This document shows positions 5,352 through 58,090 of a stretch of 63,751 bases of DNA, piece after piece. The DNA is taken from NCBI GenBank assembly GCA_028280065.1, contig JANQMN010000130.1:1-63751 (forward strand), given 5' to 3'. How positions within the stretch are numbered: position 1 is the stretch's first letter; the number at the start of each line of letters is the position of its first letter. Origin of the DNA: Hahella sp. (GTDB taxonomy: Bacteria; Pseudomonadota; Gammaproteobacteria; Pseudomonadales; Oleiphilaceae). The position numbers and the translations under genes were made by a program. The notes below the pieces were generated by a model. It was not told the origin of the DNA. It did not search any database and worked only from the letters and a program-made list of their open reading frames with translations.

Positions 5352-5390
5352 GCCGGGCAAAGGCCACATTCAATATCCTCATTTCAGATG

Positions 5391-40335: not shown

Positions 40336-41157
40336 ATGGAAACTGAACTTCTAGTCAACCATTTAAGCTGCTGGTATCCGGCCGACGAATGGGCACTGTT
40401 AAATGCAAAACCAGTAACAGGGAAACTGGTGGATAAGGAACTTGGCGAGAACCGTCACCCGTTGAAGTTACCTGCTTGCAGCAGCGATTTCGACCTCACC
40501 TGGGTTCCCGCGATGCAAAGGAGAAGAATGAGTCGATTTGCCAGGATGGCGCTTCACTGTGCCCACCAAACCGCTTCCCGGATAGAGACACCATTGAGTA
40601 GCGTTTTTGCGACCCGTCATGGTGATTTGCACCGGACCTCCGTGCTGATCGGCAACGTTGCCAAGAGAGAGCCGCTTTCGCCTAACGCCTTCAGCCTCTC
40701 GGTGCATAATGCGGTTGCTGGATTGTTCACTATCCTGAGCAAAAACACCCTGCCCACCACTACCATATCCGCTGGGCCTGATACCTTCGCCATGGCGTTG
40801 ATTGAAGCCTATGCCAAGCTGCAAGCCGGGGTGACGGATAAAATGCTGTTGGTCCATACGGATCAAGCGCTCCCGGAAATTTACTCCCGGTATCAGGATG
40901 AAAAGCAGATCGATCATGCCTTGGCCATGTGTCTTAGCCTCGGCACAGAAGGCGCGCAGGAAGGCATACGAATTTCAGTCGAAGGGATTGATTGCCTTTC
41001 TGCCGAAACTGGCGGCCAATCCAGTTCAGCTCTTGACCAAGCCCGCGATGCCTTACCCCAAGCGCTGCAGTTCTTGACTTGGATGGCTGCCGGCGAATCA
41101 CAAGGTAGGCTGACATCGCCTAGCTATTATTGGCGATTGAGTAGGCATGCTGCATAA
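40336..41157 (+). CDS. Beta-ketoacyl synthase-like protein, chain length factor of aryl polyene locus
   Basis: A 273-residue N-terminal KS-like protein of the kind that partners a true ketosynthase in aryl polyene synthases (ApeC-type). It contains PLSPNAFSLSVHNAVAGLF where a ketosynthase would have its catalytic Cys, so it is probably non-condensing and sets chain length. I start it at ATG 40336; no good ribosome site precedes it, and an upstream TTG at 40258 would read through the palindrome. It is the first gene of the operon and overlaps the next by 11 bp. Confidence 0.82.
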   Translation: METELLVNHLSCWYPADEWALLNAKPVTGKLVDKELGENRHPLKLPACSSDFDLTWVPAMQRRRMSRFARMALHCAHQTASRIETPLSSVFATRHGDLHRTSVLIGNVAKREPLSPNAFSLSVHNAVAGLFTILSKNTLPTTTISAGPDTFAMALIEAYAKLQAGVTDKMLLVHTDQALPEIYSRYQDEKQIDHALAMCLSLGTEGAQEGIRISVEGIDCLSAETGGQSSSALDQARDALPQALQFLTWMAAGESQGRLTSPSYYWRLSRHAA

Positions 41158-41920
41158 GTTCAACTATTACTGGCGGGTTGTTGCGACGGCAGTCTGTTTT
41201 ACCGTTTTCGGAGTTGGCGGACTGTTGCTGCCCTTGCTGGTGTTTCCGGCGCAGAAGCTAATCTATCCGGATCCGGAACAACGTAAGTCTAAAGCGCGCA
41301 AAGCCGTGCATCACACCTTCAAGCTATTCGTCGGACTAATGGGATTCGTCGGCGTAGCGAAGTTTCGCGCCCAAGACTGCGAACCGCTGAGGAATCTTCG
41401 GGGGCACATCATTATGGCCAACCATCCTTCATTGGTGGATGTGGTCGTACTGATATCTATGGTACCCAACGCTAATTGCGTGGTTAAAGCTGATCTGTTT
41501 AAGAATCCGTTCATGCGAGGAGTGATTCTGAATACCGGTTATCTGAGTAACGCCAATGCAGCGGATTCGCTGGAAAACTGTCGACAGACATTGGCTGCCG
41601 GGAACAATCTGATCATTTTTCCTGAGGGAACCCGAACCATTCCCGGACAAGCACTGAAGTTTCAGCGTGGCGCGGCGAATATTGCTGTAAGGTGCAATGC
41701 ACCGGTTGCCACTATACTAATTACTACCGATCCGCCATTCTTAACCAAACATGAAAAGTGGTACAAGGTGCCGGTTCGCAGGTGTGACTATAAGATCACG
41801 CTGTTGGAAAACGACATTGAAACACCGGCTGCCGACGAGGACGTCCCTCAGAGCAAGATAGTCAGGCGTTTTACCAGAACCCTAGAACAGTTTTTTGAGG
41901 AAGCATTGCACAAAATATGA
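41147..41920 (+). CDS. Lysophospholipid acyltransferase-like protein (PlsC family)
   Basis: 257 residues with an N-terminal membrane helix and the two PlsC motifs: NHPSLVD (HX4D) and FPEGTRT. In polyene loci such enzymes are thought to move the finished aryl polyene acyl group onto a lipid or sugar-lipid anchor in the inner membrane. It overlaps the previous gene and its TGA overlaps the ATG of the first ACP gene (ATGA). Confidence 0.88.
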   Translation: MLHKFNYYWRVVATAVCFTVFGVGGLLLPLLVFPAQKLIYPDPEQRKSKARKAVHHTFKLFVGLMGFVGVAKFRAQDCEPLRNLRGHIIMANHPSLVDVVVLISMVPNANCVVKADLFKNPFMRGVILNTGYLSNANAADSLENCRQTLAAGNNLIIFPEGTRTIPGQALKFQRGAANIAVRCNAPVATILITTDPPFLTKHEKWYKVPVRRCDYKITLLENDIETPAADEDVPQSKIVRRFTRTLEQFFEEALHKI

Positions 41921-42177
41921 GTGGATTGAAAACCGATCTTAAACGCTTGATTATTGATACATTGGATCTCGAAGATATCGGTGTGGACGATATCGTCGAC
42001 GACGAGCCCCTGTTTGTTGAAGGTTTGGGGCTGGACAGTATTGACGCGCTGGAACTCGGCCTCGCCATCAAGAAAGCCTATAATATCAAGATCGAGGCAA
42101 ATGCAGAAAGAACCAAAGAGCACTTTGCTTCGATCAACAGTTTGAGTGCATTTATCGAACAAAACCTTGGAAAGTAA
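41917..42177 (+). CDS. Acyl carrier protein 1 of the polyene locus
   Basis: An 86-residue ACP with the phosphopantetheine attachment motif GLDSIDALELG (Ser41). It starts within the stop codon of the acyltransferase gene and is followed after 7 bp by a second ACP gene. Paired ACPs (ApeE/ApeF-like) are a hallmark of these type II polyketide-like systems. Confidence 0.93.
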   Translation: MSGLKTDLKRLIIDTLDLEDIGVDDIVDDEPLFVEGLGLDSIDALELGLAIKKAYNIKIEANAERTKEHFASINSLSAFIEQNLGK

Positions 42178-42184
42178 ATAGACC

Positions 42185-42433
42185 ATGCAGTCACCTGAAG
42201 AGATATATGAGGCCCTTTGCGGCATACTTATTGACGACTTTGAAATCGAAGCCGATTTGCTTTCCATGCAGGCGAATCTGTATGAAGACCTGGATCTCGA
42301 TAGCATTGATGCCATCGATTTGGTGGTTAAACTGAAAGAGCTGACCGGAAAAAACATTGAACCCGAAAGGTTCAAGCAAGTAAGGACCATCGAAGATGTC
42401 GTCCGGGAGGTCGCCAAGCTTCTGGAGCTATAA
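42185..42433 (+). CDS. Acyl carrier protein 2 of the polyene locus
   Basis: An 82-residue ACP with attachment Ser40 in the segment LDLDSIDAIDLVVKLK. Sequence differs clearly from the first ACP, so the two likely have separate roles (starter loading versus elongation, or synthesis versus transfer). Confidence 0.93.
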   Translation: MQSPEEIYEALCGILIDDFEIEADLLSMQANLYEDLDLDSIDAIDLVVKLKELTGKNIEPERFKQVRTIEDVVREVAKLLEL

Positions 42434-42436
42434 CCG

Positions 42437-43006
42437 TTGCGAGGCGTCTTTCTGGCGATTGTCGGCATTCTCCTGCTGGCATATCCGGTGGTCGTGTATT
42501 TCGGTCTTTCCTGGTTTTCGCCGCGCGTAATCGCAATAGGATTGCTTGCTTTGCTGGCACTCCGGCTGTTGCTAAGCCGAAAGTTGTGGCGCCGACTACC
42601 CTGGGTATGCTTGGCAACGGTCTTGGGTATGCTGGTTTTAGGCGCAACCTTAGTCAGTGCCGATTTAACTGGAATGCTGCTTTATCCGGTCGCGGTAAAC
42701 CTGGCAATGCTCCTGATATTCGCTTATTCCTTGTGGCAAGGTCCTCCTGTTATCGAGACCCTGGCCAGAATTCAGGACCCGGACCTGGATGCCAAGGGTG
42801 TGCGCTACACCCGCCAGGTCACCTGGGTTTGGTGTGGTTTCTTTGTCTTCAACGGGACAATCGCAGGCTATACAGCCTTGTTCACTTCCTTGAAAACCTG
42901 GACGTTATACAACGGATTAATCGCTTATCTGTTAATGGGGATGCTGATGGCGGGCGAATGGTGTGTCAGAAAATGGATTCAAATTAATGACAGTTCCAAG
43001 CATTAA
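42437..43006 (+). CDS. COG4648-type membrane protein of the polyene locus
   Basis: 189 residues, TTG start at 42437, 3 bp after the ACP gene. Five or six hydrophobic segments; the C-terminal half has TRQVTWVWCGFFVFNGTIAGYTALF, typical of the conserved membrane protein found between ACP and ligase genes in aryl polyene clusters. Its role is unknown; association with membrane-bound synthesis or transfer is inferred. The frame overlaps the next gene by 20 bp. Confidence 0.82.
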   Translation: MRGVFLAIVGILLLAYPVVVYFGLSWFSPRVIAIGLLALLALRLLLSRKLWRRLPWVCLATVLGMLVLGATLVSADLTGMLLYPVAVNLAMLLIFAYSLWQGPPVIETLARIQDPDLDAKGVRYTRQVTWVWCGFFVFNGTIAGYTALFTSLKTWTLYNGLIAYLLMGMLMAGEWCVRKWIQINDSSKH

Positions 43007-44384
43007 AGCAGCCGGACCAGCTCTGCAAGCGGTCCAGTTCCGGCAGCCGGGCGGTCCGGTATCCAGATTGGCATTCGTTCAGGAAGTAGAGCGCTTCCGC
43101 AACCACCTTAAAGGCAAACTGCGCGGTTATTCGCCTGTCAAGCCACCGGTCGTGCTTCTGTACGAGTCGAATAGTTTTGCCTTCGCCGTCAGGCTTTTTG
43201 CCTGCGCCGCCGAGAACTGTACGGTACTGCTGCCGCCCAACGGCCAAACCGGCACCTTGCAGGAACTCGGTAAAATGGCTGACTATGGCTTGGGAGAGGT
43301 TGCCGATAGTGCGGCCTTGCCCAACCTCGAGCCAGATCCAAGGCAATTTGGCTCCGGTCAGGAAGCCGTGCAGGATGATCCGCCGAATCTGGCGTGGCCA
43401 GACTCACCGCAATTAGTGTTTTTTACCTCCGGCTCTACTGGCCAGCCGAAACCGGTTGTAAGGAACTGGGGACAACTCAACACCGAAATTCAGATCCTGG
43501 AAGGCCTGTTCGGCAACAGGTCCTGCCAGGCGGTTCTGGCCACTGTCTCTCATCAACACATATATGGCTTGCTATTTCGTTTATTGTGGCCGCTTTGGCG
43601 CGGCAACACGATCGAGTCCACTTTCGAGTATCCGGAACATTTGGCCACCTCCCTGCAAACCTATTCGTCGGCGTTTATCGTATCCAGCCCGGCCCATCTG
43701 ACACGGCTTTCGGAAGACAATGTGCTGGTTCCCCACAAAGACCGGCTGGCTTCGATTTTTTCGTCGGGAGGACCTCTGGCAGACGCAACTGCTGTCCGAT
43801 TGTGCCGCCAGTTGGATATGCCCGTTATCCAGGTTTATGGCAGCACGGAAACGGGAGGCATCGCCTATCGTGAAGTTGAGAAGCAGCCGGCGCCGGGCTG
43901 GCAGCCGTTTCCTGGAATAAGGCTGCAACAAGACCCGGAAAGCGGCAGGTTATGCCTATCTTCACCCTTTATAGATGCGGACTGGCTATTGCTTGACGAT
44001 CAGGGACAAGTTCAGCAAGATGGCCGGTTTTTATTGGCGGGAAGGTCCGACAGGACGATCAAACTGGAAGAGAAGCGGGTCAATCTGGATGCCGTCGAGG
44101 GCTTACTAAAGCAGCATGACTGGGTTGCCGACGGCCATATCCTGATTCTGGAAGGGCAGCGCATGCAACTGGGCGCCGTGGTTTGTTTAAACGATAACGG
44201 GCGGTGCCAACTGGATTTCATGGGTAAGAAAGCCGTTAACGAATGCCTGAAACAGCACCTGTTGAGTAAATTTGAACGCGTATGCTTGCCGCGAAAATGG
44301 CGTTACGTCAAGCAATTGCCGTTCAATGCCCAAGGAAAACTGATGCGCGCCGAAATGGAGAACCTGTTTGAGCAGACTGATTAG
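42987..44384 (+). CDS. AMP-dependent aryl/acyl ligase of the polyene locus
   Basis: A 465-residue ANL-superfamily enzyme (start ATG 42987). It has the P-loop FFTSGSTGQPKPVV, the A5 region VYGSTETGGIAYR and a C-terminal domain with LAGRSDRTIKLEEKRVN and the QGKLMR lysine. It should activate an aromatic carboxylic acid (4-hydroxybenzoate, cinnamate or coumarate type) as adenylate and load it on one of the ACPs. It is shorter than most acyl-CoA synthetases, as usual for ApeH-type ligases. Confidence 0.9.
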   Translation: MTVPSIKAAGPALQAVQFRQPGGPVSRLAFVQEVERFRNHLKGKLRGYSPVKPPVVLLYESNSFAFAVRLFACAAENCTVLLPPNGQTGTLQELGKMADYGLGEVADSAALPNLEPDPRQFGSGQEAVQDDPPNLAWPDSPQLVFFTSGSTGQPKPVVRNWGQLNTEIQILEGLFGNRSCQAVLATVSHQHIYGLLFRLLWPLWRGNTIESTFEYPEHLATSLQTYSSAFIVSSPAHLTRLSEDNVLVPHKDRLASIFSSGGPLADATAVRLCRQLDMPVIQVYGSTETGGIAYREVEKQPAPGWQPFPGIRLQQDPESGRLCLSSPFIDADWLLLDDQGQVQQDGRFLLAGRSDRTIKLEEKRVNLDAVEGLLKQHDWVADGHILILEGQRMQLGAVVCLNDNGRCQLDFMGKKAVNECLKQHLLSKFERVCLPRKWRYVKQLPFNAQGKLMRAEMENLFEQTD

Positions 44385-44772
44385 AACCCAGCCGGAGATC
44401 GTTTCAGTGATGATGCGCGGCCCTGACGGCAATCTTGTTGAAGTGGCCGAAAAGGCATTGGCGGCGACAGACGATCTGGTGTTGAATCTCAAAATTCCCT
44501 CCGATCTCGATTATTTCAACGGCCACTTTCCGGAGGCTCCTATCCTGGCTGGCGTCGTGCAGTTGGATTGGGCGATAAGACTCGGTCTGGAGTATCTGAG
44601 GTTTGGTTCCCGTGCGGTGCAAAACCTTGAAGTTCTTAAGTTTCAAGTGGTGTTGACGCCTGGGTTGGAAGTGCAGCTTTTTTTAACCAAAAAAACTTCT
44701 GACAAATTTGTATTCAGCTATCATTCGGACCAGGGCATGCACGCGTCCGGAAGAGTGGTTTTGGGACACTAA
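44368..44772 (+). CDS. 3-hydroxyacyl-ACP dehydratase (ApeI/FabA-like hotdog)
   Basis: 134 residues with the hotdog motif YFNGHFPEAPILAGVVQLDW (catalytic His53, Asp67). The first possible codon is TTG 44368, inside the end of the ligase gene. It should dehydrate the growing chain to form conjugated double bonds; a second hotdog dehydratase lies at 54445 and the two may form a heterodimer as reported for ApeI/ApeP. Confidence 0.88.
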   Translation: MSRLIRTQPEIVSVMMRGPDGNLVEVAEKALAATDDLVLNLKIPSDLDYFNGHFPEAPILAGVVQLDWAIRLGLEYLRFGSRAVQNLEVLKFQVVLTPGLEVQLFLTKKTSDKFVFSYHSDQGMHASGRVVLGH

Positions 44773-44778
44773 TTCGCT

Positions 44779-45513
44779 ATGAGCTACTGTGCTGTCATTC
44801 CAAATTACAACCATACGCACCGAATTCGCGAGGTTATTACCCACTTGGTAGATTTGGGATTGCCTGTCATTATGGTGAACGATGCCAGTACGCCTGAAGC
44901 AAAGACCTTTTTCTGCGAATTGGAAAAGGAATTTGACTCTCTCGAAGTCGTCCATCATGAGCAAAATCAGGGCAAAGGCGGCGCGGTGCAAACCGGTTTG
45001 CGGCGGGCTTACCGAAAAGGTTATGAATTTGCTTTGCAGGTGGACGCCGACGGCCAGCATAGCCTGGCGGATGCCGAACGGCTGTTGCGGACTTCGAAAG
45101 AGCATCCGGGTGCGGTTATCAGCGGGCGTCCGCTGTTTGACGACTCAATCCCTAAAATCCGCTTTCTCAGTCGTTACATTACCCATTTCTGGGTGGTCAT
45201 TGAGACGTTGTCTTTGATGCTGAAAGACACTATGTGCGGATTTCGCGTTTACCCCTTGGCGCCTACCGTTGCCCTGCTGCAAAGCGTGAATATGGGCAGA
45301 CGCATGGACTTCGATATTGAGATTATGGTGCGTCTCTATTGGCGGGGCTTACGGTTTATTTTTTTGCCGACCAAAGTAATTTATCCGGAAGATGGTTCCT
45401 CACACTTTCGGCCATTGCAGGACAATGTGCTCATTTCCTGGCTGCATACCCGCTTGTTTTTTGGCATGTTGCTCCGAATACCCTATCTTATAGCTCGCCA
45501 CTTCGGTAAGTAA
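44779..45513 (+). CDS. Family 2 glycosyltransferase (DPM/DPG synthase-like)
   Basis: 244 residues with the GT-A fold: AVIPNYNHTHRIREVITHL, the acidic VNDAST motif, and the QVDADGQH metal-binding DxD-like segment, ending with a hydrophobic C-terminal region. In polyene loci it is thought to add a sugar to the polyene or to a lipid carrier. It belongs to the operon with a 6-bp spacing. Confidence 0.9.
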   Translation: MSYCAVIPNYNHTHRIREVITHLVDLGLPVIMVNDASTPEAKTFFCELEKEFDSLEVVHHEQNQGKGGAVQTGLRRAYRKGYEFALQVDADGQHSLADAERLLRTSKEHPGAVISGRPLFDDSIPKIRFLSRYITHFWVVIETLSLMLKDTMCGFRVYPLAPTVALLQSVNMGRRMDFDIEIMVRLYWRGLRFIFLPTKVIYPEDGSSHFRPLQDNVLISWLHTRLFFGMLLRIPYLIARHFGK

Positions 45514-45550
45514 TCGTTACTTTGGTAAAAAAGAGGTGAAGGCGGTATAG

Positions 45551-46501
45551 ATGGAAGCGGCGAAGCAACGACACTGGTCCAACATGCAGGAGCGTGGCAC
45601 CCTCCTGGGCATGCGAATACTGCTGACAAGTTACCGTCTTTTGGGGCGCTGGGGGCTATGGGTATTTATGTTTCCGGTGGTTTTCTACTTTTATGTCAGC
45701 GGCAAATCGGGCCGGACAGCCTCAATCGCATTCCTGAATCAGGTTAATCGATACCTGCAACGGGAGCAGACTGCCGGTTTCTGGCAAGGGCTGAAACTGT
45801 TTTGCAGCTTTGCCGACTCCGCGTTCGATAAGATCGATGCCTGGCAAGGCGCTATCGGTATTGAAGATATTGAATACTCCAACATCGAGGCATTTCGCGA
45901 GTTGGTGGAGAGCAGTTCCGGAGCAGTATTGATCGGCTCTCATCTGGGTAATTTGGAAGTCTGCCGAGCCCTGAGTTTCGGCCGTTATGCAACCCGGATT
46001 AACGTGTTGGTGTTCACTGCCCATGCCGTGAAGTTTAACGATCTTCTCAGCAGCATAAGCTCTAATGTGAATCTCAATCTGATACAGGTAACGGAACTTT
46101 CCATTGATTTTGTCATTGAACTCAAGGAGCGTGTTGAGCGCGGCGAAATGGTGGTGATAGTCGGTGACAGAACCAGCACCTCCACGTCCGGCCGGGTTGT
46201 GTATGCGGATTTTTTAGGGAAACCCGCGCCTTTTCCCGAAGGCCCGTTCATATTGGCCTCTCTGCTGGAATGTCGGGTATATTTGTTGTTTTGCCTTAAA
46301 GATAAGGACAGGTTCAAGGTTGTTTTCGAACCTTTTTCCGGCAAGTTAGCGCTGCCCAGAAAGCATCGGAAACAAGTATTGCAGTCCTGTGTGGAACGTT
46401 ATGCTCAAAGTTTGAGCAGCTATGCAGCACAGTACCCTTACCAGTGGTTCAATTTTTATAATTTCTGGCAAGAAGATGATAAAGTCCAACGCCAACAGTA
46501 A
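45551..46501 (+). CDS. LpxL/HtrB-like lauroyl acyltransferase family protein
   Basis: 316 residues with a single N-terminal membrane helix (about 30-50) and the LpxL-type motif GSHLGNLE (HX4E). Such enzymes transfer acyl chains onto lipid A-like acceptors. In this operon it is a candidate for attaching the aryl polyenoyl chain to a glycolipid. An in-frame ATG at 45584 is an alternative start. Confidence 0.88.
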   Translation: MEAAKQRHWSNMQERGTLLGMRILLTSYRLLGRWGLWVFMFPVVFYFYVSGKSGRTASIAFLNQVNRYLQREQTAGFWQGLKLFCSFADSAFDKIDAWQGAIGIEDIEYSNIEAFRELVESSSGAVLIGSHLGNLEVCRALSFGRYATRINVLVFTAHAVKFNDLLSSISSNVNLNLIQVTELSIDFVIELKERVERGEMVVIVGDRTSTSTSGRVVYADFLGKPAPFPEGPFILASLLECRVYLLFCLKDKDRFKVVFEPFSGKLALPRKHRKQVLQSCVERYAQSLSSYAAQYPYQWFNFYNFWQEDDKVQRQQ

Positions 46502-46522
46502 TGCCTGGAGAACGGTAAACCA

Positions 46523-48067
46523 GTGAAGCAAGTTGATGCACACATTTTCGGGCATGGTGCCTTATCCATTGAAGATATTGTGTCCATTGCCATCGAGAAG
46601 ACCCCGGTGGCGTTGGCTGACGCCGAGCATTTCCGGCACAAAATAGACGCCGCTGTCCGATTTCTCGATACCCTGTTACAAGAAGATGGTGTGATTTACG
46701 GGGTAACCACGGGATATGGCGATTCAGTGACAGTGACGGTACCGCTTGAACTGGTTGAAGAGCTGCCATTGCACTTGACCCGTTTTCATGGCTGCGGGTT
46801 GGGTGAGCTGTTCAATGCAACGGAGGGCAGGGCCATTCTCGCCACGCGTCTGGCGTCTTTGTGTCAGGGCTATTCGGGCGTGACCTGGGACCTGCTTAAT
46901 CATCTGGTTACCTTTCTTAACCAGGATGCAATTCCGGTCGTCCCTGAAGAGGGTTCCGTCGGGGCTAGTGGCGATTTGACGCCGTTGTCCTATGTTGCCG
47001 GCGCGCTGGTCGGCGAAAGGATGATGTATTTTAAAGAACAGATTCGCCCGGCGGCCGAGGTGCTTGAGGAACTGGGTTTACAGCCTTTGAAACTGCGCCC
47101 CAAGGAGGGTTTGGCGGTCATGAACGGAACGGCGGTCATGACCGCGTTGGCGTGCCTGGCGTATGATCGCGCGGACTATCTGGCAAAACTAGCCAGCCGT
47201 ATCACCGCCCTGGCAAGCTTGGCATTGCGCGGTAACAGTCACCACTTTGACGATATCTTATTCGGCGTAAAACCTCATGCCGGGATGCAACAGGTCGCCG
47301 CCTGGATCCGCGAGGACCTTAACCATCACCAACATCCGAGGAATTCGGATCGGTTGCAGGACCGCTATTCCATTCGCTGTGCTCCCCATGTTATCGGTGT
47401 TCTCCAGGATAGCCTGCCGTTTTTCAGGCAGACGATCGAAAACGAGCTTAATTCCGCGAATGATAACCCCATCATCGACGGCATCGGCGAGCATGTCCTG
47501 CATGGTGGGCATTTCTATGGCGGGCATATCGCGATGGTGATGGATAGCATGAAAACGGCGGTGGCGAATCTGGCAGACCTGGCGGACCGGCAATTGGCGT
47601 CACTTATCGATACCCGTTTCAATAACGGTTTGCCGGCGAACCTATCCGCCAGCACCGAGCCCAGACGCACCATCAATCACGGTTTCAAGGCCGTACAGAT
47701 CGGCGCTTCGGCCTACACCGCAGAAGCGTTGAAACTTACGATGCCGGCCAGCGTCTTCTCCCGCTCAACAGAATGCCATAACCAGGATAAGGTCAGCATG
47801 GGAACCATTGCTGCAAGGGATGGCATGCGGGTTTTACAGCTGACCGAACAGGTATTGGCAAGCACATTGTTGGCGTCGATTCAGGGGTTGTATCTGCGTA
47901 TCCGGAGAGGTGAACTCGAACATGATACGCTACCGGAAAACCTGATGCAGATGTTCGATGATGTCACGGGCTTTTTTCCGCCCTTGATTGAAGACCGGCC
48001 GCTCGAAGAGGTTTTACGCTTTACCGTAAAGGCGATCCAGTCTCAGAGATGGGTTTTATATGACTAA
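46523..48067 (+). CDS. Aromatic amino acid ammonia-lyase (HAL/PAL/TAL family)
   Basis: A 514-residue MIO-dependent lyase (GTG start). The Ala-Ser-Gly triad that forms the prosthetic group is at 148-150 in VGASGDLTPLS, and Tyr65 lies in VTTGYG. By alignment from memory with Rhodobacter TAL (His89-Leu90) the selectivity pair here is Phe88-His89, unlike typical PAL (Phe-Leu) or HAL (Ser-His), so substrate preference is open between Phe and Tyr or His. In this operon it most likely supplies cinnamate or 4-coumarate as starter, as TAL does for flexirubin. Confidence 0.92.
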   Translation: MKQVDAHIFGHGALSIEDIVSIAIEKTPVALADAEHFRHKIDAAVRFLDTLLQEDGVIYGVTTGYGDSVTVTVPLELVEELPLHLTRFHGCGLGELFNATEGRAILATRLASLCQGYSGVTWDLLNHLVTFLNQDAIPVVPEEGSVGASGDLTPLSYVAGALVGERMMYFKEQIRPAAEVLEELGLQPLKLRPKEGLAVMNGTAVMTALACLAYDRADYLAKLASRITALASLALRGNSHHFDDILFGVKPHAGMQQVAAWIREDLNHHQHPRNSDRLQDRYSIRCAPHVIGVLQDSLPFFRQTIENELNSANDNPIIDGIGEHVLHGGHFYGGHIAMVMDSMKTAVANLADLADRQLASLIDTRFNNGLPANLSASTEPRRTINHGFKAVQIGASAYTAEALKLTMPASVFSRSTECHNQDKVSMGTIAARDGMRVLQLTEQVLASTLLASIQGLYLRIRRGELEHDTLPENLMQMFDDVTGFFPPLIEDRPLEEVLRFTVKAIQSQRWVLYD

Positions 48068-48108
48068 CATAAGGCCTCTGATCGCCGAGGAAAAAGGGTT
48101 GCCGTGAG

Positions 48109-48537
48109 ATGAACAAACGCAATGCCTTGTTAACCGCCAGTGTCGAAATCGAGATTCCGTTTCACGATTGCGATCCGATGCGGATTGTCTGGCACGGAAA
48201 CTATGCCCGGTATCTGGAAGTGGCCCGCTGCGAACTACTGCGTAAGTTCGATTATGACTATCTGCAGATGCATGAATCGGGATATATGTGGCCGATCATC
48301 GATATGAATATTAAGTATGTGGGACCGGCGACCTTTACCCAAAAACTGCTGGTAGAAGTGTATCTTAAAGAATATGAGACGCGTCTGTTGCTGGATTATT
48401 TGATATTCGATGCAGCCTCCGGTAAAAAGTTGACGAAGGCCAGAACTTCCCAGGTTGCAGTCAAAATCGACACCAACGAAATGCAGTTCGCCAGCCCGCG
48501 GGTTCTACTGGACAAATTGGCGCGGGTGTTGAAATGA
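48109..48537 (+). CDS. Hotdog acyl-ACP/CoA thioesterase (4HBT family)
   Basis: 142 residues with the 4HBT signature IPFHDCDPMRIVWHGNYARYLEVARCELL (here shortened in meaning: catalytic Asp in DCDPM and the HGNY segment). It should release or edit acyl chains from ACP; ApeK-like thioesterases do this in aryl polyene synthesis. Its stop overlaps the start of the LolA-like gene. Confidence 0.88.
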   Translation: MNKRNALLTASVEIEIPFHDCDPMRIVWHGNYARYLEVARCELLRKFDYDYLQMHESGYMWPIIDMNIKYVGPATFTQKLLVEVYLKEYETRLLLDYLIFDAASGKKLTKARTSQVAVKIDTNEMQFASPRVLLDKLARVLK

Positions 48538-49130
48538 CCTGTAGGCCGCGACGGCGTCAACATATTCCAGCTTTGCTGTTTTGCTTTTCATTGATCCTGC
48601 CGGTGCAAGCTATCGCGGAACAATCGCTAGCCGGCCGGCAACTTTCCGCGGCGGAAGCCGGGCAACGCATGGCGCTGATTCAAAAGGACCGGGTATCGGG
48701 AAAGTTTACCCAGCACAAGCATTTCAAGGTCCTCGCCAAACCCTTTGTTTCCAGCGGCAGTTTTACCCTGGCAGAAGATGAACTGCTGTGGCAGACCCAA
48801 AAGCCGGTCAGCAGTCGTATTACGTTGCAGGATGGAAGCCTGATCCTTGAAGATAGCACCGGTGTCAAACAGCCGGGTGACCAGGCGGCACAGTTCGTAC
48901 AGTTGCTGCATCGTGCCATGCGGGGGGATTTGGCGGCTCTCGATGCGCACTTCCAGTTCAGTTCGGAGCCACGTGCTGATTGTGTGAAAATGACCCCCAC
49001 CGAGGATGGGATTCGCAAGGTGTTCCGTGAAATCACGCTCTGCGGTAAAGGCGATGTCAGCGAGGTCAAACTGGTTGACGGGTCAGATAACTTCACTGAA
49101 ATCGAGCTAATCCCGAATCCACCGCAGTGA
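48534..49130 (+). CDS. LolA-like periplasmic lipid carrier protein
   Basis: 198 residues, N-terminal signal peptide (about 1-28), then a LolA-like fold (SGKFTQHKHFKVLAKPFVSSG, ELLWQTQKPVSS, and EIELIPNP at the end). In polyene clusters this family is believed to carry the lipid-linked pigment across the periplasm. Two Cys residues near the C-terminus (DCVKM, LCGKG) may form a disulphide. It is translationally coupled to the exporter gene. Confidence 0.9.
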   Translation: MTCRPRRRQHIPALLFCFSLILPVQAIAEQSLAGRQLSAAEAGQRMALIQKDRVSGKFTQHKHFKVLAKPFVSSGSFTLAEDELLWQTQKPVSSRITLQDGSLILEDSTGVKQPGDQAAQFVQLLHRAMRGDLAALDAHFQFSSEPRADCVKMTPTEDGIRKVFREITLCGKGDVSEVKLVDGSDNFTEIELIPNPPQ

Positions 49131-51433: not shown

Positions 51434-52682
51434 TTTGAGTATAGAGCAATTTGATGTTGTCGTTATCGGCGCCGGTCCTTCCGGTGCTGTCGCGAGTGCG
51501 ATGCTGGCTCGCATGGGGTGGCGGGTTTTGGTATTGGAAAAAGACCAGTTTCCACGGTTTTCCATCGGTGAAAGCCTGCTGCCGCAGAGTATGGGCTTTT
51601 TGGCGGAAGCTGGCCTCAAAGAGCTGGTGGAAGAAGCGGCGCCGAAGTATGGATTCCAATTTAAAAATGGGGCTGCTTTTCACAAGGCGGGCGTTGATGT
51701 GGCATTTGATTTCACAAAGAAATTTTCCGTCGGTCCCGGCACCACTTTTCAGGTAAAACGGGCTGCTTTCGACAAGCTGTTGGCGGATAGCGCCAGTGAT
51801 ATCGGAGTATTGATTCGCTACGAACATAAGGTTAGGAGATTTGACAATGCGCAAGCCGAACCTGTGCTCAGCGTGGTAGATGAATCCGGGGATGAGTATC
51901 AGGTTCAAGGCCGTTTTGTGCTGGATGCCAGTGGTTTTGGCCGCGTTCTGCCAAGGCTGTTGGAGTTGGAGCGGCCTTCCGGCTTTCCGGTTCGTCAATC
52001 CATATTTGCCCATATACAGGACCACATTAACGGCCAGGATTTTGATCGCGACAAGATACTGATTACTGTCCATCCTGAAATACGAGACATCTGGTATTGG
52101 CTGATTCCATTTTCTGACGGCACGGCGAGTATTGGCGTTGTAGGTAAACCCGAACAACTGGTGCCGAATGGTGATATGCCGTTACCCGAGCGCCTGCGGT
52201 TTTGGGTTTCAGAGGATCCCAACTTGGCGAGTTTACTGAACCGCGCGGAATACCTCACCGAAGCCAGAACGATTACCGGCTACTCTGCCGATGTAACTTC
52301 CCTGGTTGGGAAGGGCTACGCCCTGCTTGGCAATGCCGGCGAGTTCCTGGACCCTGTGTTTTCCTCCGGGGTGACGATTGCTCTGCGTTCAGCGACCCTG
52401 ATTGCACCTGTTGTGGACCGCTATCTGAAAGGCGAAAAAATGGACTTTGACAGCGAGTTCTCACAACCGTTGAAGCAAGGCGTGGAGTGTTTCAAAACCT
52501 TCGTGTCGGCCTGGTACGACGGCGGTTTCCAGGACGTCATATTTTCTCCACAGCCGAACGAGAAAATTCGTGACATGATCAGTTCGATTCTCGCGGGTTA
52601 TGCATGGGATGCAAACAACCCATTCGTCGCCGAAAGTCAGCGGCGCCTGGAAGCGCTTATTGGGTTATGTCAGAAAAACTAG
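51426..52682 (+). CDS. FAD-dependent halogenase-like oxidoreductase
   Basis: A 418-residue flavoprotein (GTG start). The FAD-binding loop GAGPSG is at 15-20. Two features of flavin-dependent halogenases are visible: WYWLIP at 223-228 fits WxWxIP, and Lys74 in the APKYGFQFKNG segment aligns with the lysine that relays hypohalous acid in pyrrole/phenol-type enzymes. Related proteins in polyene loci are usually annotated only as FAD-dependent oxidoreductases. It may halogenate the aryl head group, as in brominated xanthomonadins, or it may be a dehydrogenase/hydroxylase; sequence alone does not settle this. Confidence 0.86.
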   Translation: MIDLSIEQFDVVVIGAGPSGAVASAMLARMGWRVLVLEKDQFPRFSIGESLLPQSMGFLAEAGLKELVEEAAPKYGFQFKNGAAFHKAGVDVAFDFTKKFSVGPGTTFQVKRAAFDKLLADSASDIGVLIRYEHKVRRFDNAQAEPVLSVVDESGDEYQVQGRFVLDASGFGRVLPRLLELERPSGFPVRQSIFAHIQDHINGQDFDRDKILITVHPEIRDIWYWLIPFSDGTASIGVVGKPEQLVPNGDMPLPERLRFWVSEDPNLASLLNRAEYLTEARTITGYSADVTSLVGKGYALLGNAGEFLDPVFSSGVTIALRSATLIAPVVDRYLKGEKMDFDSEFSQPLKQGVECFKTFVSAWYDGGFQDVIFSPQPNEKIRDMISSILAGYAWDANNPFVAESQRRLEALIGLCQKN

Positions 52683-53251
52683 TCTGGTCTGCGAAGTTAA
52701 TCCGTATAGTAGCTCTGGTCACTGTTTGTTGTAGCTGCACATGGCTAGCCACGCAGCAAGGCGGAGTCGACCGAACCAGGGTTGCCTTGAGTCCCGATGT
52801 GCGTTTACAGCTGAGTGCGTCTCCCGCGCATTTGATCGGCATCGAGGTGAGTCAGTTAATTCGGCTTCAGTATGCCGGTGAACAGCATCAGTTGCTTAGT
52901 CGGCTGCAATTTACCGAGTCCGGAATTACCCTGGTCGCAATTTCCACCCAGGGTGTACCGTTGTTTGAAATCGTATTTCTAGAGGGTAGGGAGCCTCACG
53001 TGCGGCAGTACCTTCCGATTAAGGGGCCGGAGCCGCAGTATATATTGGCGGATATTCAATTGGTGTTATGGCCGGCGCCGCAGCTTCGGAGCAACCTGCA
53101 AGGCGCCGAACTGGTGGAGGATGCCGATGGCAAACGGCGAATAATCCTGGAACAGCAGCAACCCTTGATACTAATCGACCGCTCCGAAAGGGAATCGCGA
53201 TTGGAGCATTTGAAACGTGGCTATACTGTAGTCATAAGTGACATTGAGTAA
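52667..53251 (+). CDS. DUF3261 protein of the polyene locus, signal peptide or lipoprotein
   Basis: 194 residues from ATG 52667, overlapping the flavoprotein gene by 16 bp. The N-terminus has a hydrophobic signal (about 8-25) with CCSC near its end, a weak lipobox candidate (Cys24). The mature part is beta-rich, with QPLILIDRSERESRLEHL near the end, like DUF3261 proteins encoded beside MMPL exporters in aryl polyene clusters. A role in outer membrane delivery is inferred. Confidence 0.8.
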   Translation: MSEKLVWSAKLIRIVALVTVCCSCTWLATQQGGVDRTRVALSPDVRLQLSASPAHLIGIEVSQLIRLQYAGEQHQLLSRLQFTESGITLVAISTQGVPLFEIVFLEGREPHVRQYLPIKGPEPQYILADIQLVLWPAPQLRSNLQGAELVEDADGKRRIILEQQQPLILIDRSERESRLEHLKRGYTVVISDIE

Positions 53252-53257
53252 TGTAAG

Positions 53258-54448
53258 ATGGCTGTTTTTCTTCACGACTTGGGCATCCTATGCGCTCTGG
53301 GCAACGATAAGTTGCAAGTTTCGGCAGCACTTTGCGACAGGGAAATTAGCGGTCACAAGTCGCTATGCAGGGATACCGGATCACTGGCGGACGGACGAAC
53401 TTGCTATGTCGGCAAGGTGGGCGCGGCTCTGCCGGCATTGAACGAATTGCCACCGCGTTTTCAAAGCCGAAATAACCAACTGGTTTCGGCGGCTTTCCAG
53501 CAAGTTCAAGAGAGTTTTGACAAATTGTCCGCAGGCGTTCCCCCGGCAAGGATCGCTGTTGTCATGGGTACCAGCACATCCGGTATCAAAGAAGGCGAAG
53601 AAGCCAGGGAAGAATACGAGAAAACGGGTGAAATGCCGGATGGGTTTCACTATCGGCTACAGGAAATGGGGTCTCCCGCGCAGTTTTTGGCAGAACTCTG
53701 TAAAGCCAAGGGCCCGGTTTACAGCGTCTCTACTGCATGCAGCTCCAGCGCCAAGGCACTACTGAGCGCAAAAGCTTTACTGGACAGCAATCTGGTAGAT
53801 TTGGTAGTTTGCGGCGGCGCTGACACGCTGAGCCGATTGCCGCTCAACGGCTTCCATGCATTGGAGTCGATTGCGGCTGATTACAGTAGACCTTTGGCAG
53901 CACAGCGTGACGGTATTAACATCGGCGAAGCTGCGGCGTTGTTTATCGCTAGCCGCGAATCCGCTGATATTGAGCTGTTGGGGGGCGGAGAATCCTCCGA
54001 TGCTCATCATGTTTCCGCGCCGCATCCGGAAGGCCAAGGCGCATTAGCGGCGATGGCCAGTGCGATTCAGCAAGCGCAGTTGGCGCCGGGTACAATCGAT
54101 TATATTAATTTGCATGGCACGGGAACGCCGAAAAACGATTCGATGGAAGCCCGGGCCGTGTACCGATTGTTTGCCAAAAACGCTGCTGTTAGTTCTACCA
54201 AATCCCTTACCGGACACACTTTGGGGGCGGCAGGAGCGCTGGAGGCAGGGATCTGCTGGTTATTATTGAGTGATCTGAATAAGACCAGGCGGCTTCCGGT
54301 GAATGGGAAAGACTTTCAAAAAGATCCTGTCTTGGCGGATGTTCGTCTAAGCCAAGGTGAGGAAGTTGAAGAGTTGGCATACTGCCTGTCTAACTCGTTC
54401 GCCTTTGGCGGAAACAACGCCAGTCTTATACTAGGAAGAAGGAAGTGA
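53258..54448 (+). CDS. Beta-ketoacyl-ACP synthase (FabB/F-like) of the polyene locus, copy 1
   Basis: 396 residues with the condensing-enzyme triad: Cys161 in STACSSSAKALL, His in LHGTGTPKNDSME and His in KSLTGHTLGAAG. It should catalyse decarboxylative condensation with malonyl-ACP. Together with the second ketosynthase and the chain length factor it completes the KS set of an aryl polyene synthase. Confidence 0.92.
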   Translation: MAVFLHDLGILCALGNDKLQVSAALCDREISGHKSLCRDTGSLADGRTCYVGKVGAALPALNELPPRFQSRNNQLVSAAFQQVQESFDKLSAGVPPARIAVVMGTSTSGIKEGEEAREEYEKTGEMPDGFHYRLQEMGSPAQFLAELCKAKGPVYSVSTACSSSAKALLSAKALLDSNLVDLVVCGGADTLSRLPLNGFHALESIAADYSRPLAAQRDGINIGEAAALFIASRESADIELLGGGESSDAHHVSAPHPEGQGALAAMASAIQQAQLAPGTIDYINLHGTGTPKNDSMEARAVYRLFAKNAAVSSTKSLTGHTLGAAGALEAGICWLLLSDLNKTRRLPVNGKDFQKDPVLADVRLSQGEEVEELAYCLSNSFAFGGNNASLILGRRK

Positions 54449-54903
54449 ATCAGTATTCGATGGCGCAGGTGTTATCGCATCGACCGCCGATGATTTTACT
54501 CGATCAGTTATCGAGTTATTCCGGGTCGGGCGCACTCTGCCGGGTAACGATCACCGATGAGTCGCCTTTTTTTCAAGATGGGCTGGCTGGCGTGCCATCT
54601 TATATCGGAATCGAGTATATGGCGCAGACAATCGCTGCCTTTGCGGGCGCAAACGCGCTCGACGGCGGCGAGTCGGTAAAGATCGGTTTTTTGCTGGGTT
54701 CGAGAAAGTATCAGACCCAGGTGGATAGATTTTCAACAGGTACAACGCTGGATATTGAGGTCATGCGGCTGCATCAAGAAGATTCCGGACTAAGCGTTTT
54801 CGATTGCACGATTCAAACGACAAATGAAAAGCTGGCCGAAGCCCGGATTAATGTGTTTCAACCGCCGGATCCAGTGCAATTTCTAAGGGAGCAGAATGGC
54901 TAA
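54445..54903 (+). CDS. Hotdog 3-hydroxyacyl-ACP dehydratase (ApeP-like)
   Basis: 152 residues, GTG start at 54445 inside the ketosynthase stop. His12 in HRPPMILLD and Glu57 in IGIEYMAQ are the probable catalytic pair. Second dehydratase of the operon; likely partner of the ApeI-like enzyme at 44368. Confidence 0.87.
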   Translation: MNQYSMAQVLSHRPPMILLDQLSSYSGSGALCRVTITDESPFFQDGLAGVPSYIGIEYMAQTIAAFAGANALDGGESVKIGFLLGSRKYQTQVDRFSTGTTLDIEVMRLHQEDSGLSVFDCTIQTTNEKLAEARINVFQPPDPVQFLREQNG

Positions 54904-55621
54904 GCGAATTTTAGTTACCGGATCGAGCCGGGGCATAGGGAAGGCAATTGCGCTACGTCTGGCGCGGGAAGGCTATGACATCGTTCTGCACTGTCGTGCG
55001 CAGCGGGAGGCTGCAGACGAAGTGGCCAAGGCTGTCGTTGCACTGGGCCGGAAGGCTGATCTGTTGCAGTTCGATGTCTGTGACAGGGCGCAGGCAAAGC
55101 AGCAAATCGAAGCGGATATTGCAAGCAACGGCGCCTACTATGGCGTGGTCTGTAATGCAGGGCTGACCCGGGATACAGCCTTCCCTGCGATGTCCGGAGA
55201 GGACTGGGATGCGGTGTTAAGAACGGGACTGGACGGCTTTTATAATGTTGTCCAGCCCACGGTGTTGCCCATGGTGCAGGCCCGCCGGGGTGGGCGGATT
55301 GTAACCATGGCGTCTGTCTCCGGCATCGCGGGTAACCGCGGGCAAGTGAATTACAGTGCGGCGAAGGCGGGTATTATCGGAGCCACTAAAGCGCTGGCCC
55401 TGGAGCTGGCGAAACGCAAGATCACCGTCAACTGTGTCGCGCCGGGGTTGGTCGCCACCGAAATGCTCGAGGATGTCGCCGTCGACAAGCTACTTGCGCT
55501 GGTGCCGATGCGGCGGGTGGGTACCGTTGATGAAGTCGCGGGCACCGTGGCTTTCCTGATCTCGGAGGATGCCGCCTACATTACCCGCCAAGTGATATCC
55601 GTGAACGGTGGGTTAGTCTGA
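54896..55621 (+). CDS. 3-oxoacyl-ACP reductase (FabG-like, ApeQ type)
   Basis: 241 residues of the SDR family: NADPH loop GSSRGIG (9-15), CNAG motif, catalytic Ser in MASVSG and YxxxK in NYSAAKAG. Reduces the 3-keto intermediate before dehydration. Stop and next start share one base (TGATG). Confidence 0.93.
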   Translation: MAKRILVTGSSRGIGKAIALRLAREGYDIVLHCRAQREAADEVAKAVVALGRKADLLQFDVCDRAQAKQQIEADIASNGAYYGVVCNAGLTRDTAFPAMSGEDWDAVLRTGLDGFYNVVQPTVLPMVQARRGGRIVTMASVSGIAGNRGQVNYSAAKAGIIGATKALALELAKRKITVNCVAPGLVATEMLEDVAVDKLLALVPMRRVGTVDEVAGTVAFLISEDAAYITRQVISVNGGLV

Positions 55622-56850
55622 TGAATAGAGTAGTCATTACCGGTATGGGAGCCATCACCGCTTTTGGTGATAACTGGGCGGACTTTAAAGCCCGGTTGGA
55701 AGCCGGGGAAAATGCGGTTGTTACCATGCCGGAATGGGATTACGTGGAAAATCTCAATACCCGCCTGGCCGCGCCCGTTACCTGTTTCGAAAAGCCCCCG
55801 CATTACAGCCGCAAGAAAGTTCGGGCGATGGGCAGAGTCGCGCTGATGGCCACCCGCGCCAGTGAAATCGCCTTGGAACAGGCGAATCTACTGGACCATC
55901 CGGATCTGACCAATGGCGCCACGGGCATTTCATACGGATCGTCTATCGGTTCAACCAAACCGCTTGCGGCTTTCGGCGCGATGCTCACCAAAGGCGAAAC
56001 CCGAGGGGTTACCGCGACCAGTTATATTCAGATGATGTCGCATACGGCGGCGGTCAATATCGGCGTTTATTTCGGTTTGAAAGGCCGGGTCGTTCCGTCC
56101 AGCTCGGCCTGCACCTCGGGGTCGCAGGGAATCGGCTTCGCCTACGAAATGATTCGCTATGGCCAACAAAAGATGATGCTGGCAGGAGGAGCGGAAGAGC
56201 TTTGCGTGACCGAAGCGGCCGTGTTTGACACCCTGTTCGCAACCAGTACCCGTAACGAAACGCCAAAACAGACGCCACGGCCTTTCGATAAGAACCGGGA
56301 TGGCCTGGTGATCGGCGAAGGCGCATGCACCCTGGTACTGGAGGAACTGGAACATGCCAGGAATCGGGGCGCTGAGATTATCGCGGAAGTAGTCGGTTTT
56401 GGCTGCAATTCCGACGGCGCCCACGTCACCCAGCCGACTTCCGCCACCATGCAGGGAGCCATTCGTTTAGCCGTTGAGGACGCCGGTGTTGCGCCGTCGC
56501 AAATCGGCTACGTCAATGCCCACGGCACCTCCACCGACCGTGGAGATATTGCCGAATCCCACGCGACCAGGGATGTCCTCGGCAAGGTGCCCATCAGCTC
56601 GTTAAAGAGCTATCTCGGACATACATTAGGCGCATGTGGCGCCGTCGAAGCCTGGGCGACCATTTTGATGATGCGGGACGGTTGGTTCGCGCCAACGGTC
56701 AACCTCGACAATATTGATCCTGAATGCGCGGATTTGGACTATATTCGCGGCGAGGGCAGACATATTCAAACCGACTATGTCATGAGCAACAACTTTGCCT
56801 TCGGTGGAATCAATACCTCGCTAATCTTCAAACGCTGGCAGGATGATTAG
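55621..56850 (+). CDS. Beta-ketoacyl-ACP synthase II-like (FabF) of the polyene locus, copy 2
   Basis: 409 residues. Cys164 in SSACTSGSQG, His in NAHGTSTDRGD and His in LKSYLGHTLGACG. The sequence is FabF-like and complete, and is the last synthase gene in the operon. It may be the iterative elongating enzyme, with the other ketosynthase pairing with the chain length factor; which is which cannot be decided here. Confidence 0.93.
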   Translation: MNRVVITGMGAITAFGDNWADFKARLEAGENAVVTMPEWDYVENLNTRLAAPVTCFEKPPHYSRKKVRAMGRVALMATRASEIALEQANLLDHPDLTNGATGISYGSSIGSTKPLAAFGAMLTKGETRGVTATSYIQMMSHTAAVNIGVYFGLKGRVVPSSSACTSGSQGIGFAYEMIRYGQQKMMLAGGAEELCVTEAAVFDTLFATSTRNETPKQTPRPFDKNRDGLVIGEGACTLVLEELEHARNRGAEIIAEVVGFGCNSDGAHVTQPTSATMQGAIRLAVEDAGVAPSQIGYVNAHGTSTDRGDIAESHATRDVLGKVPISSLKSYLGHTLGACGAVEAWATILMMRDGWFAPTVNLDNIDPECADLDYIRGEGRHIQTDYVMSNNFAFGGINTSLIFKRWQDD

Positions 56851-57652
56851 TCGCCGGGGCCTGTCGGGCCTGCTGCTTGGTGTCTGTCAGTTAAGCCTGG
56901 CCGAGTATAGCCTGGAACTGGGGGCCGGCGGATTTGCCGCCAGTATTCCGGAATATCCGGGGGCGGGCGAGCAAACCAATATTGCGTTGCCTTTACCCTA
57001 TGTTAAATACCAGGACGAGCATATCGAAGTTGATCGCGAAGGACTCACCGGCTGGTTGTGGGAAGCGGAAAACTGGCATCTGGACATTTCCATGGCCGGG
57101 GGATTGCCGGTAGACAGCGAAGATAGCGAAGCCCGCCGGGGATTGCCGGATTTGGATTGGGTATTGGAAATAGGTCCTTCCATTAAGTATTACTGGCAAG
57201 GCGAACCCAGGGCGGAACAGTTCGGTTATGCCGAGTTGTTCTATCGCAAAGCCACCGCCTTTGATTTCGATTCCCTGACCAATGCCGGATGGCGCTACGG
57301 TGTTGGTCTCAGTTATGAGCAACCGCTCTTGGCGATCGGCAAGGGTACGCTGAATTTGGCGTGGCGCTTTAACGGTAACTTTGCCGATGCCCGGTATCTC
57401 GATTACTACTATGGCGTGGAACCGCAGTATGCGACGGCGGAACGCCCGGCTCATCGGCATGACGACGGCTATGCCGGTTCGGATATATCCCTGGGATTGG
57501 TCTATCAAACGCCGGAGTTTTGGCTTGGCGGGTTTTTGCGCTATTATGCGCTCTCCGATTCGGAACAGACCGCCAGCCCCATTTTTCATGTAGCGGAAGA
57601 GTGGGCGGCTGGCGTCGCACTTTTTTGGATTTTCTATAAAAACAGGGAATAA
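56843..57652 (+). CDS. MipA/OmpV-family outer membrane protein
   Basis: 269 residues with a signal peptide (about 1-20) and a beta-barrel pattern ending in aromatic (the last strand EEWAAGVALFWIFYK and terminal NRE). The N-terminal GAGGFAASIPEYPGAGEQTN and IALPLPYVKYQ are typical of MipA/OmpV proteins. It overlaps the last ketosynthase gene by 8 bp, so it is translated with the polyene genes. This suggests an outer membrane role in pigment placement, which I infer only from context. Confidence 0.85.
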   Translation: MISRRGLSGLLLGVCQLSLAEYSLELGAGGFAASIPEYPGAGEQTNIALPLPYVKYQDEHIEVDREGLTGWLWEAENWHLDISMAGGLPVDSEDSEARRGLPDLDWVLEIGPSIKYYWQGEPRAEQFGYAELFYRKATAFDFDSLTNAGWRYGVGLSYEQPLLAIGKGTLNLAWRFNGNFADARYLDYYYGVEPQYATAERPAHRHDDGYAGSDISLGLVYQTPEFWLGGFLRYYALSDSEQTASPIFHVAEEWAAGVALFWIFYKNRE

Positions 57653-57655
57653 TCA

Positions 57656-58090
57656 ATGAATAAACTAACGTTATTGACAGCTTTATTGGCAGTACTACTC
57701 TCTCAGACGGTTGTTGCCAGGGATACCATCCACCAGTTTCCTATTGAAGCATTGCTGGCAACAAGCAAAGCAAAGGAAGCTTTGTATGATGTTCCCATGT
57801 ATTTTGGCGATCAATCCCATCCTGCGGTGAAAACCACCTGGGGCGAGGTAATGTCGAATAAAAAGACTAATGCCTTTATGAAATCTGACCGTGAAGCGTG
57901 CGAGTGGGTAATGTTGAGCGCACTAAAAGCGCTTCAGGAAAGGGCGCAAAGGGAAGGGATGGACGCTGTGATCAATATCCATTCTTACTATAAAAAGCGT
58001 ACCTTCGTTAGCGAAACGGAATACGAATGTGGCGCGGGCAATGTGGTGGCCGGCGTTACCTTGAAGGGAACCCTGGTAAAGCTGAAGTAA
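57656..58090 (+). CDS. Small secreted protein of unknown function
   Basis: 144 residues with a signal peptide (about 1-21, ending VVARD). The mature part contains REACEWVMLSALKALQERAQREGMDAVINIHSYYK-like content (key features: a helix then DAVINI and a C-terminal VAGVTLKGTLVKL strand) recalling the YbjQ-like fold. Homologues are often misannotated as excinuclease subunits. It begins 3 bp after the OmpV-like gene and is followed by a terminator, so it ends the operon; its function is unknown. Confidence 0.72.
   Translation: MNKLTLLTALLAVLLSQTVVARDTIHQFPIEALLATSKAKEALYDVPMYFGDQSHPAVKTTWGEVMSNKKTNAFMKSDREACEWVMLSALKALQERAQREGMDAVINIHSYYKKRTFVSETEYECGAGNVVAGVTLKGTLVKLK

Follow-up and report, generated by a model that had tools for sequence, protein, structure and literature searches.

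What does the gene block at bases 40336–57652 of the Hahella sp. contig JANQMN010000130.1 make, and what do the ammonia-lyase and the halogenase-like flavoprotein encoded in it contribute to the product? The window, by which we mean the whole 63,751-nucleotide stretch analysed, carries there 20 genes, all on the plus strand. We consider it highly probable that together they make up an aryl polyene (APE) operon, complete and of the type found in Pseudoalteromonas and Acinetobacter; in the working proposed below, the starter would derive from tyrosine and the aromatic ring would plausibly be halogenated. Judged from its sequence, the operon is an ordinary, complete gene set for a yellow membrane pigment of known type.

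Gene content and pathway identity

The assignment is carried by the ketosynthases (KS). Among all solved structures, two alone match ApeC, namely 6qsp_B and 7f28_A, both chains of ApeC type, while ApeO is best matched by 6qsp_A and 7f28_B, and ApeR by 4ewg and 7f27. According to PMC8358021, 6QSP is ApeO-ApeC of Xenorhabdus, structures of ApeO-ApeC and ApeR from Acinetobacter baumannii are described, and 4EWG is reassigned as an ApeR; 7f28 and 7f27 would be these Acinetobacter entries. Because the nearest solved relatives of the ketosynthases are APE enzymes, we read the pathway as one for an aryl polyene. In addition to the ApeO-ApeC ketosynthase/chain length factor (KS-CLF) pair, the block encodes the other components by which APE clusters are recognized, namely two free acyl carrier proteins (ACPs), an AMP ligase, a ketoreductase (KR), the ApeI and ApeP dehydratases (DHs), the second ketosynthase ApeR, and the genes for lipid attachment and export (ApeD, the two ApeJ parts, and ApeG, L, M and N).

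The initial annotation had described 20 plus-strand genes with all core APE activities plus anchoring and export functions. The open reading frames were confirmed at the coordinates it gave, and family assignment by Pfam and NCBIfam scans, judged against the cut-offs of the models, supports the activities with the exception of apeG and the LolA-like carrier. As for anchoring and export, ApeD, the ApeJ parts, ApeM and ApeN are recognized by their families, ApeL scores under the Pfam cut-off, and ApeG is assigned by position and homology. The genes, in order and with the likely last gene included, are:

40336–41157, plus strand: apeC, ketosynthase chain length factor (PF13723, 6.7e-59; sole solved matches 6qsp_B and 7f28_A)
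41147–41920, plus strand: apeD, lysophospholipid-type acyltransferase (PF01553)
41917–42177, plus strand: apeE, acyl carrier protein 1 (PF00550; NF006617 over cut-off)
42185–42433, plus strand: apeF, acyl carrier protein 2 (PF00550; NF003757 over cut-off)
42437–43006, plus strand: apeG, membrane protein (by position and tblastn matches to relatives at 40–59% identity; no Pfam or NCBIfam family over cut-off)
42963–44384, plus strand: apeH, AMP-forming aryl acid ligase (PF00501; best NCBIfam match 4-coumarate-CoA ligase TIGR02372, under cut-off)
44368–44772, plus strand: apeI, dehydratase (PF22818, ApeI-like, over cut-off)
44779–45513, plus strand: glycosyltransferase family 2 (GT2), one part of the fused ApeJ of E. 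coli (PF00535)
45551–46501, plus strand: lipid A type acyltransferase, the other ApeJ part (PF03279)
46523–48067, plus strand: 4-methylideneimidazole-5-one (MIO) ammonia-lyase, probably a tyrosine ammonia-lyase (PF00221, 1.3e-158; MIO triad ASG; motif 1 FH; motif 2 Gln)
48109–48537, plus strand: apeK, 4HBT thioesterase (PF13279)
48534–49130, plus strand: apeL, LolA-like carrier (PF03548, 19.9 bits vs. cut-off 23.6; flexirubin LolA2 NF053544, 5.7e-18; both under cut-off)
49127–51433, plus strand: apeM, MMPL/RND-type exporter (PF03176)
51426–52682, plus strand: halogenase-like flavoprotein (PF04820, Trp_halogenase, 1.1e-19; solved relative 3nix, 2.1e-98; Lys80, WxWxIP, FLDPVFSSG)
52604–53251 (start maybe ~52667), plus strand: apeN, DUF3261 lipoprotein-like (PF11659, 2.9e-25)
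53258–54448, plus strand: apeO, ketosynthase (NF006618 over cut-off; best solved match 6qsp_A, 1.4e-102)
54445–54903, plus strand: apeP, dehydratase (PF22817, ApeP-like, over cut-off)
54896–55621, plus strand: apeQ, ketoreductase (TIGR01831 over cut-off)
55621–56850, plus strand: apeR, ketosynthase (NF006587 over cut-off; best solved matches 4ewg and 7f27)
56843–57652, plus strand: mipA, MipA/OmpV outer membrane protein (PF06629, 4.1e-34; also 3' of apeR in Pseudoalteromonas THAF3)
57656–58090, plus strand: small protein of 144 aa, likely the last operon gene (68% identical relative at the same position in THAF3; no Pfam family matched)

E. coli ApeJ is described as a glycosyltransferase/acyltransferase (PMC8253772). 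With the gene calls used here, 12 of the 19 junctions among the first 20 genes overlap and seven have gaps of 3–41 bp, and the block therefore reads as one operon. The initial annotation had given overlaps of 1–16 bp; the seven gaps and two longer overlaps depart from that range, the latter (apeG/apeH, 44 bp; flavoprotein/apeN, 79 bp) being dependent on the choice of start codon. If apeN starts at Met22 (base 52667), its overlap with the flavoprotein gene shrinks to 16 bp. The operon probably includes the 21st gene, which begins 3 bp downstream of mipA and relatives of whose product adjoin aryl polyene genes in other genomes. Such relatives are annotated as excinuclease, in THAF3 as 'excinuclease ABC subunit A', a label that looks wrong.

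The halogenase-like flavoprotein

As a whole the operon adds a further example to a very common type of pigment cluster, and the part of it that could matter is the flavoprotein, which is present in 30 of 50 complete loci across the two genome samples described below and of whose clade no tested member was found. Should it prove to be a halogenase, many aryl polyenes might carry halogens, and the chemistry of the family would be under-described.

The flavoprotein was aligned with 47 relatives chosen at >300 bits (48 rows in all). Lys80, the WxWxIP motif and FLDPxFSSG, which we take to be a halogenase motif, are kept in all 48 rows, and GxGxxG is present in the window's protein and in 47 of 48 rows, one row being without that stretch. 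The WxWxIP motif noticed in the initial annotation is indeed there, as W223-Y-W225-L-I-P228. GxGxxG, the Lys and WxWxIP are the features by which BrvH was found, in which the Lys is essential (PMC5945002); the proposed role of WxWxIP is to keep the enzyme from monooxygenation, whereas halogenation is reported to require the Lys (PMC5945002, PMC10696468). In a fold search with the predicted structure (predicted local distance difference test score, pLDDT, 85.3), chains of 3nix occupied ranks 1–6 and ranks 7–38 were all halogenases, with ChlB4, Mpy16, PltA, Bmp2, FasV, CndH, CmlS, RadH, CtcP and PltM among them. Motifs and predicted fold suggest that the flavoprotein likely works like a halogenase, and it is plausible that the pigment ring is what it halogenates.

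Two observations weigh against a halogenase step. The nearest solved relative both in sequence (2.1e-98) and in fold (template modelling score, TM, 0.88) is the same 3nix, a flavoprotein of Cytophaga hutchinsonii (Bacteroidota) without assigned function, and in the flavoprotein tree the window's protein falls with 3nix in a clade of its own, with 99% support in the Shimodaira–Hasegawa-like approximate likelihood ratio test (SH-aLRT), apart from the four characterised halogenases included (Mpy16, FasV, CndH and CmlS; PltA, Bmp2 and ChlB4 were left out). This position is what would be expected if the protein were a hydroxylase or catalysed some other redox reaction on the ring or the polyene, an alternative that we consider unlikely though still a serious one. 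Folds of the geranylgeranyl reductase-like and 4-hydroxybenzoate hydroxylase kinds do appear from rank 39, and weaker NCBIfam matches point to the flavin monooxygenase QhpG and to geranylgeranyl reductases, all under cut-off; yet the top-scoring NCBIfam model is that of the halogenase CmlS, itself far under its cut-off (145.7 vs. 900 bits), and the invariance of Lys, WxWxIP and FLDPxFSSG, with the roles proposed for the first two, argues for the halogenase reading.

Among open-licence papers, seen through titles and the beginnings of abstracts, none was found that describes the activity of this flavoprotein. Relatives at 49 and 57% identity occur in Neisseria elongata and in a Neisseriaceae metagenome-assembled genome, respectively, with no match to any other operon gene within ~10 kb on either side; there the flavoprotein may need no cluster around it, or may serve a pathway whose genes lie elsewhere. 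The flavoprotein gene of Burkholderia multivorans is found not between apeM and apeO but a few kb downstream of the aryl polyene genes.

Distribution of the flavoprotein, the lyase and ApeB

To avoid selecting on lyase or flavoprotein, loci were chosen by the chain length factor family PF13723 in 370 genomes of the class and 399 of the order. The class sample gave matches in 86 genomes (87 matches besides the window's), of which 76 were examined, the 11 left out scoring ≤103 bits. In the order sample, 132 genomes had a match; 50 matches were hand-picked at ≥116 bits, leaving aside G407, which was already in the set, G883, which sits at a contig end, and a further five of 120–128 bits, and the best 40 of these 50 (≥173.7 bits) were examined, so that this sample leans to high-scoring chain length factors. 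By a uniform rule, 19 of 76 class loci and 31 of 40 order loci were complete, and 57 and nine, respectively, were dropped. Among the nine dropped order loci, L198 and L210 have both lyase and flavoprotein, and L196 has the lyase. Many PF13723 matches below ~130 bits (part of L083–L141) sit in a different, recurrent ketosynthase locus that contains relatives of the KS, the KR, the exporter and the glycosyltransferase, but no ApeR-like KS at full score.

The 50 complete loci hold the flavoprotein in 30 cases, the lyase in 29 and both in 19. The joint presence of the two in one operon, singled out in the initial annotation, is therefore common rather than notable, and halogenase-like neighbours had already been marked in 2013, when the legend of Figure 5 in PMC3691225 pointed out, for most selected clusters, halogenase genes adjoining the pair with the chain length factor. 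Both genes are found in A. baumannii, two Comamonas, Acidovorax sp. SRB_14, Pantoea sp. Ap-967, two Pseudomonas and each of the nine genomes examined from the same family; the flavoprotein occurs without the lyase in Cupriavidus metallidurans and five other Acidovorax loci. A linked pair was rejected: the two assort independently (Fisher 0.57, in the set judged by eye, described below).

No methyltransferase had been seen in the operon, and this stands. E. coli ApeB, which is thought to methylate the head group (PMC8253772), matches nothing in this genome, a search that had no positive control of its own, although the same query finds matches in 11 of the 50 loci. Because the genome contains 32 generic Methyltransf_23 matches, methylation by an enzyme unlinked to the operon may still occur. 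With an ApeB-type methyltransferase defined by >200 bits to E. coli ApeB, the 50 complete loci contain the flavoprotein in 30, ApeB in 11 and both in a single one, L212 (one-sided Fisher 1.5e-4, uncorrected for kinship). A stricter rule leaves 45 loci with 29, 7 and 1, respectively (p 5e-3, likewise uncorrected), and a first tally in which the class loci were judged by eye, so that L080 and L082 were counted and L125 and L133 were not, gave 31 of 50, 11 and 1 (p 7.9e-5, again without correction for kinship). In the class sample alone, neither the uniform rule (p 0.058) nor the stricter one (p 0.15) falls below 0.05.

Kinship was addressed on an ApeR tree of 66 rows (the by-eye sample plus named and same-family loci), which requires at least 6 changes of ApeB and at least 11 of the flavoprotein. 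Supported branches yield four independent pairs with a difference in ApeB; among these the flavoprotein differs in the opposite sense in 3.8 on average and never in the same direction. The rarity with which flavoprotein and ApeB share a locus suggests that they are alternative ring decorations. This would fit the rings of flexirubins, which vary in methylation and chlorination (PMC3992019), and the alterochromides, for which AltA makes coumarate and deletion of altN abolishes bromination (PMC5577590). Several points tell against such an exchange: the avoidance is not significant on the independent tree pairs, four being too few; L212 carries both genes; and in Pantoea sp. Ap-967 and Pseudomonas sp. 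GD04091 another S-adenosylmethionine (SAM) methyltransferase gene, unlike ApeB, lies between the flavoprotein gene and apeN (in Pantoea at ~11245–11973 of its locus; PF08241, 6.9e-25, in a family scan of this locus alone). The wider proposal, that the flavoprotein clade, spread over many proteobacteria and including 3nix of the Bacteroidota, consists of aryl polyene ring halogenases repeatedly swapped with ApeB at the same ring position, so that a large share of the loci would make halogenated and not methylated pigment, is one that we offer tentatively and would place somewhat short of even.

The ammonia-lyase and the starter unit

The initial annotation had proposed that the operon contains its own starter-making lyase, and the MIO lyase found there supports this, the enzyme not being a histidine ammonia-lyase (HAL). 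In an alignment of the window's lyase with 43 relatives (44 rows), the MIO-forming Ala-Ser-Gly is kept throughout; motif 2 has in all 44 rows the Gln of tyrosine and phenylalanine ammonia-lyases (TAL/PAL) and not the Glu of HAL; and motif 1, the selectivity position, reads F or Y followed by His in 43 of 44 rows, the window having FH. A histidine lyase was ruled out by this combination, since HutH of the same genome (C33) has SH at motif 1 and Glu at motif 2. FlxA, the proven TAL of flexirubin synthesis, is described as mixed too, HAL-like at motif 1 but of TAL/PAL type at motif 2, and as preferring tyrosine 1010-fold (PMC3992019). Because the motifs of the window's lyase resemble this mixed pattern, the enzyme is probably a tyrosine lyase, and 4-coumarate the likely starter.

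Against a tyrosine starter stand the first position of motif 1, which is Phe in the window and not the His of a textbook TAL; the presence of UbiC in the same genome, through which 4-hydroxybenzoate, the starter in E. coli, could serve too; and the complete loci with flavoprotein, 11 of 30 of which have no lyase. The lyase might instead yield cinnamate from phenylalanine, as the Phe at the first selectivity position, found in PALs (PMC3992019), would allow, or it might be dispensable, as its absence from 21 of the 50 complete loci could indicate, with 4-hydroxybenzoate made by UbiC as the true starter. We regard these possibilities, taken together, as clearly less probable than a tyrosine-derived starter, given that the His at the second position and the Gln of motif 2 follow the FlxA pattern and that AltA of the alterochromide pathway converts tyrosine to coumarate (PMC5577590).

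Proposed pathway

In the pathway that we propose, the MIO lyase would convert tyrosine to 4-coumarate, and ApeH would load the aryl acid onto an ACP, as its Xenorhabdus homologue does in vitro with 4-hydroxybenzoate. By analogy with homologues for which these reactions are established, ApeO-ApeC would add malonyl units, ApeQ reduce and ApeI/ApeP dehydrate, giving a conjugated polyene. The flavoprotein would add a halogen to the phenol ring beside its hydroxyl, substituting for the methyl group that ApeB adds in other clusters. Judging by homologues, the acyltransferases and the glycosyltransferase would attach the polyene acid to a lipid, which ApeG, L, M and N, together with MipA, would carry to the outer membrane. 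There the pigment may protect against oxidants, as reported for other APEs.

Comparison with known systems

The closest match is the cluster of Pseudoalteromonas sp. THAF3, where each of the 21 genes, with lyase, flavoprotein, MipA and the small last gene among them, has a counterpart and the order is unchanged, at 26–76% protein identity, but on an 801 kb plasmid record. That of Pseudoalteromonas Bsw20308 differs in having neither MipA nor the last gene, and these two rows form the sister group of the window in the tree of ApeR (96% SH-aLRT); aryl polyene clusters of ten Pseudoalteromonas genomes have been described (PMC9966250). The A. baumannii cluster shares the core, the lyase and the flavoprotein, but no MipA is found in the stretch, one annotated ORF covers ligase and dehydratase, and a 4'-phosphopantetheinyl transferase follows. 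The apeC to apeR order is also that of the E. coli and Xenorhabdus clusters (PMC8253772). E. coli differs in that it has ApeA and the methyltransferase ApeB and that its ApeJ is fused, whereas the window has no ApeA or ApeB and an ApeJ split in two; it adds the lyase and the flavoprotein, both missing from the E. coli locus examined, and MipA. In sequence libraries, fatty acid synthesis partly shares its families with the KS, KR and DH found here, but a type II locus of another kind, whether for fatty acids, ladderanes or something else, is very improbable in view of the full synteny with aryl polyene loci in other genera, the ApeI-like and ApeP-like dehydratase models passed, and the structure matches of ApeC, ApeO and ApeR, which speak against the fatty acid or ladderane origin of the KS that would have contradicted the annotation as aryl polyene.

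Among other aryl polyenes, flexirubins of Chitinophaga and Flavobacterium share the tyrosine lyase starter route and type II elongation, and chlorinated and methylated rings are known (PMC3992019), but the pigment is esterified with a dialkylresorcinol. The dialkylresorcinol synthase DarB has nothing over cut-off in this genome, so that such a hybrid was rejected, and the window's lyase does not pass the flexirubin FlxA model (333.8 vs. cut-off 700 bits). Xanthomonadin is likewise an aryl polyene, and brominated, with a halogenase gene in two Xanthomonas clusters (PMC3691225), but it starts from 3-hydroxybenzoate made by XanB2; this chorismatase is not among the 21 operon genes, 20 of which are otherwise assigned and the last without family, the rest of the genome not having been searched for it. 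Five rearranged aryl polyene loci were taken as xanthomonadin-like, without named proof; four hold a flavoprotein, which reaches only 62–123 bits against the window's, and the flavoproteins of three fall outside the window's clade in the tree, so that orthology with the window's flavoprotein was rejected. The alterochromide system, likened here by description and not by sequence, resembles the operon in its tyrosine lyase AltA for the starter and in AltN, needed for bromination of the aryl polyene, a pairing demonstrated by gene deletion (PMC5577590), and differs in its peptide-linked product and in a cluster described as lacking KS-CLF (PMC8358021).

Genomic surroundings

Within the genus Hahella, PF13723 is found in this genome alone among seven. 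No simple empty site was found in the six congeners: relatives of the upstream gene at 39280 and of the MarR gene at 58141 are present in all six, but on different contigs or megabases apart, so that these conserved neighbours do not flank the operon as a clean insertion. No CRISPR-like direct repeats were found in bases 1–6000. Immediately past the 3' end of the operon, on the minus strand and transcribed towards it, the ATPase and permease genes (58679–60764) of an ABC transporter of the glycine betaine/proline type, assigned by reading alone, lie behind the MarR regulator.

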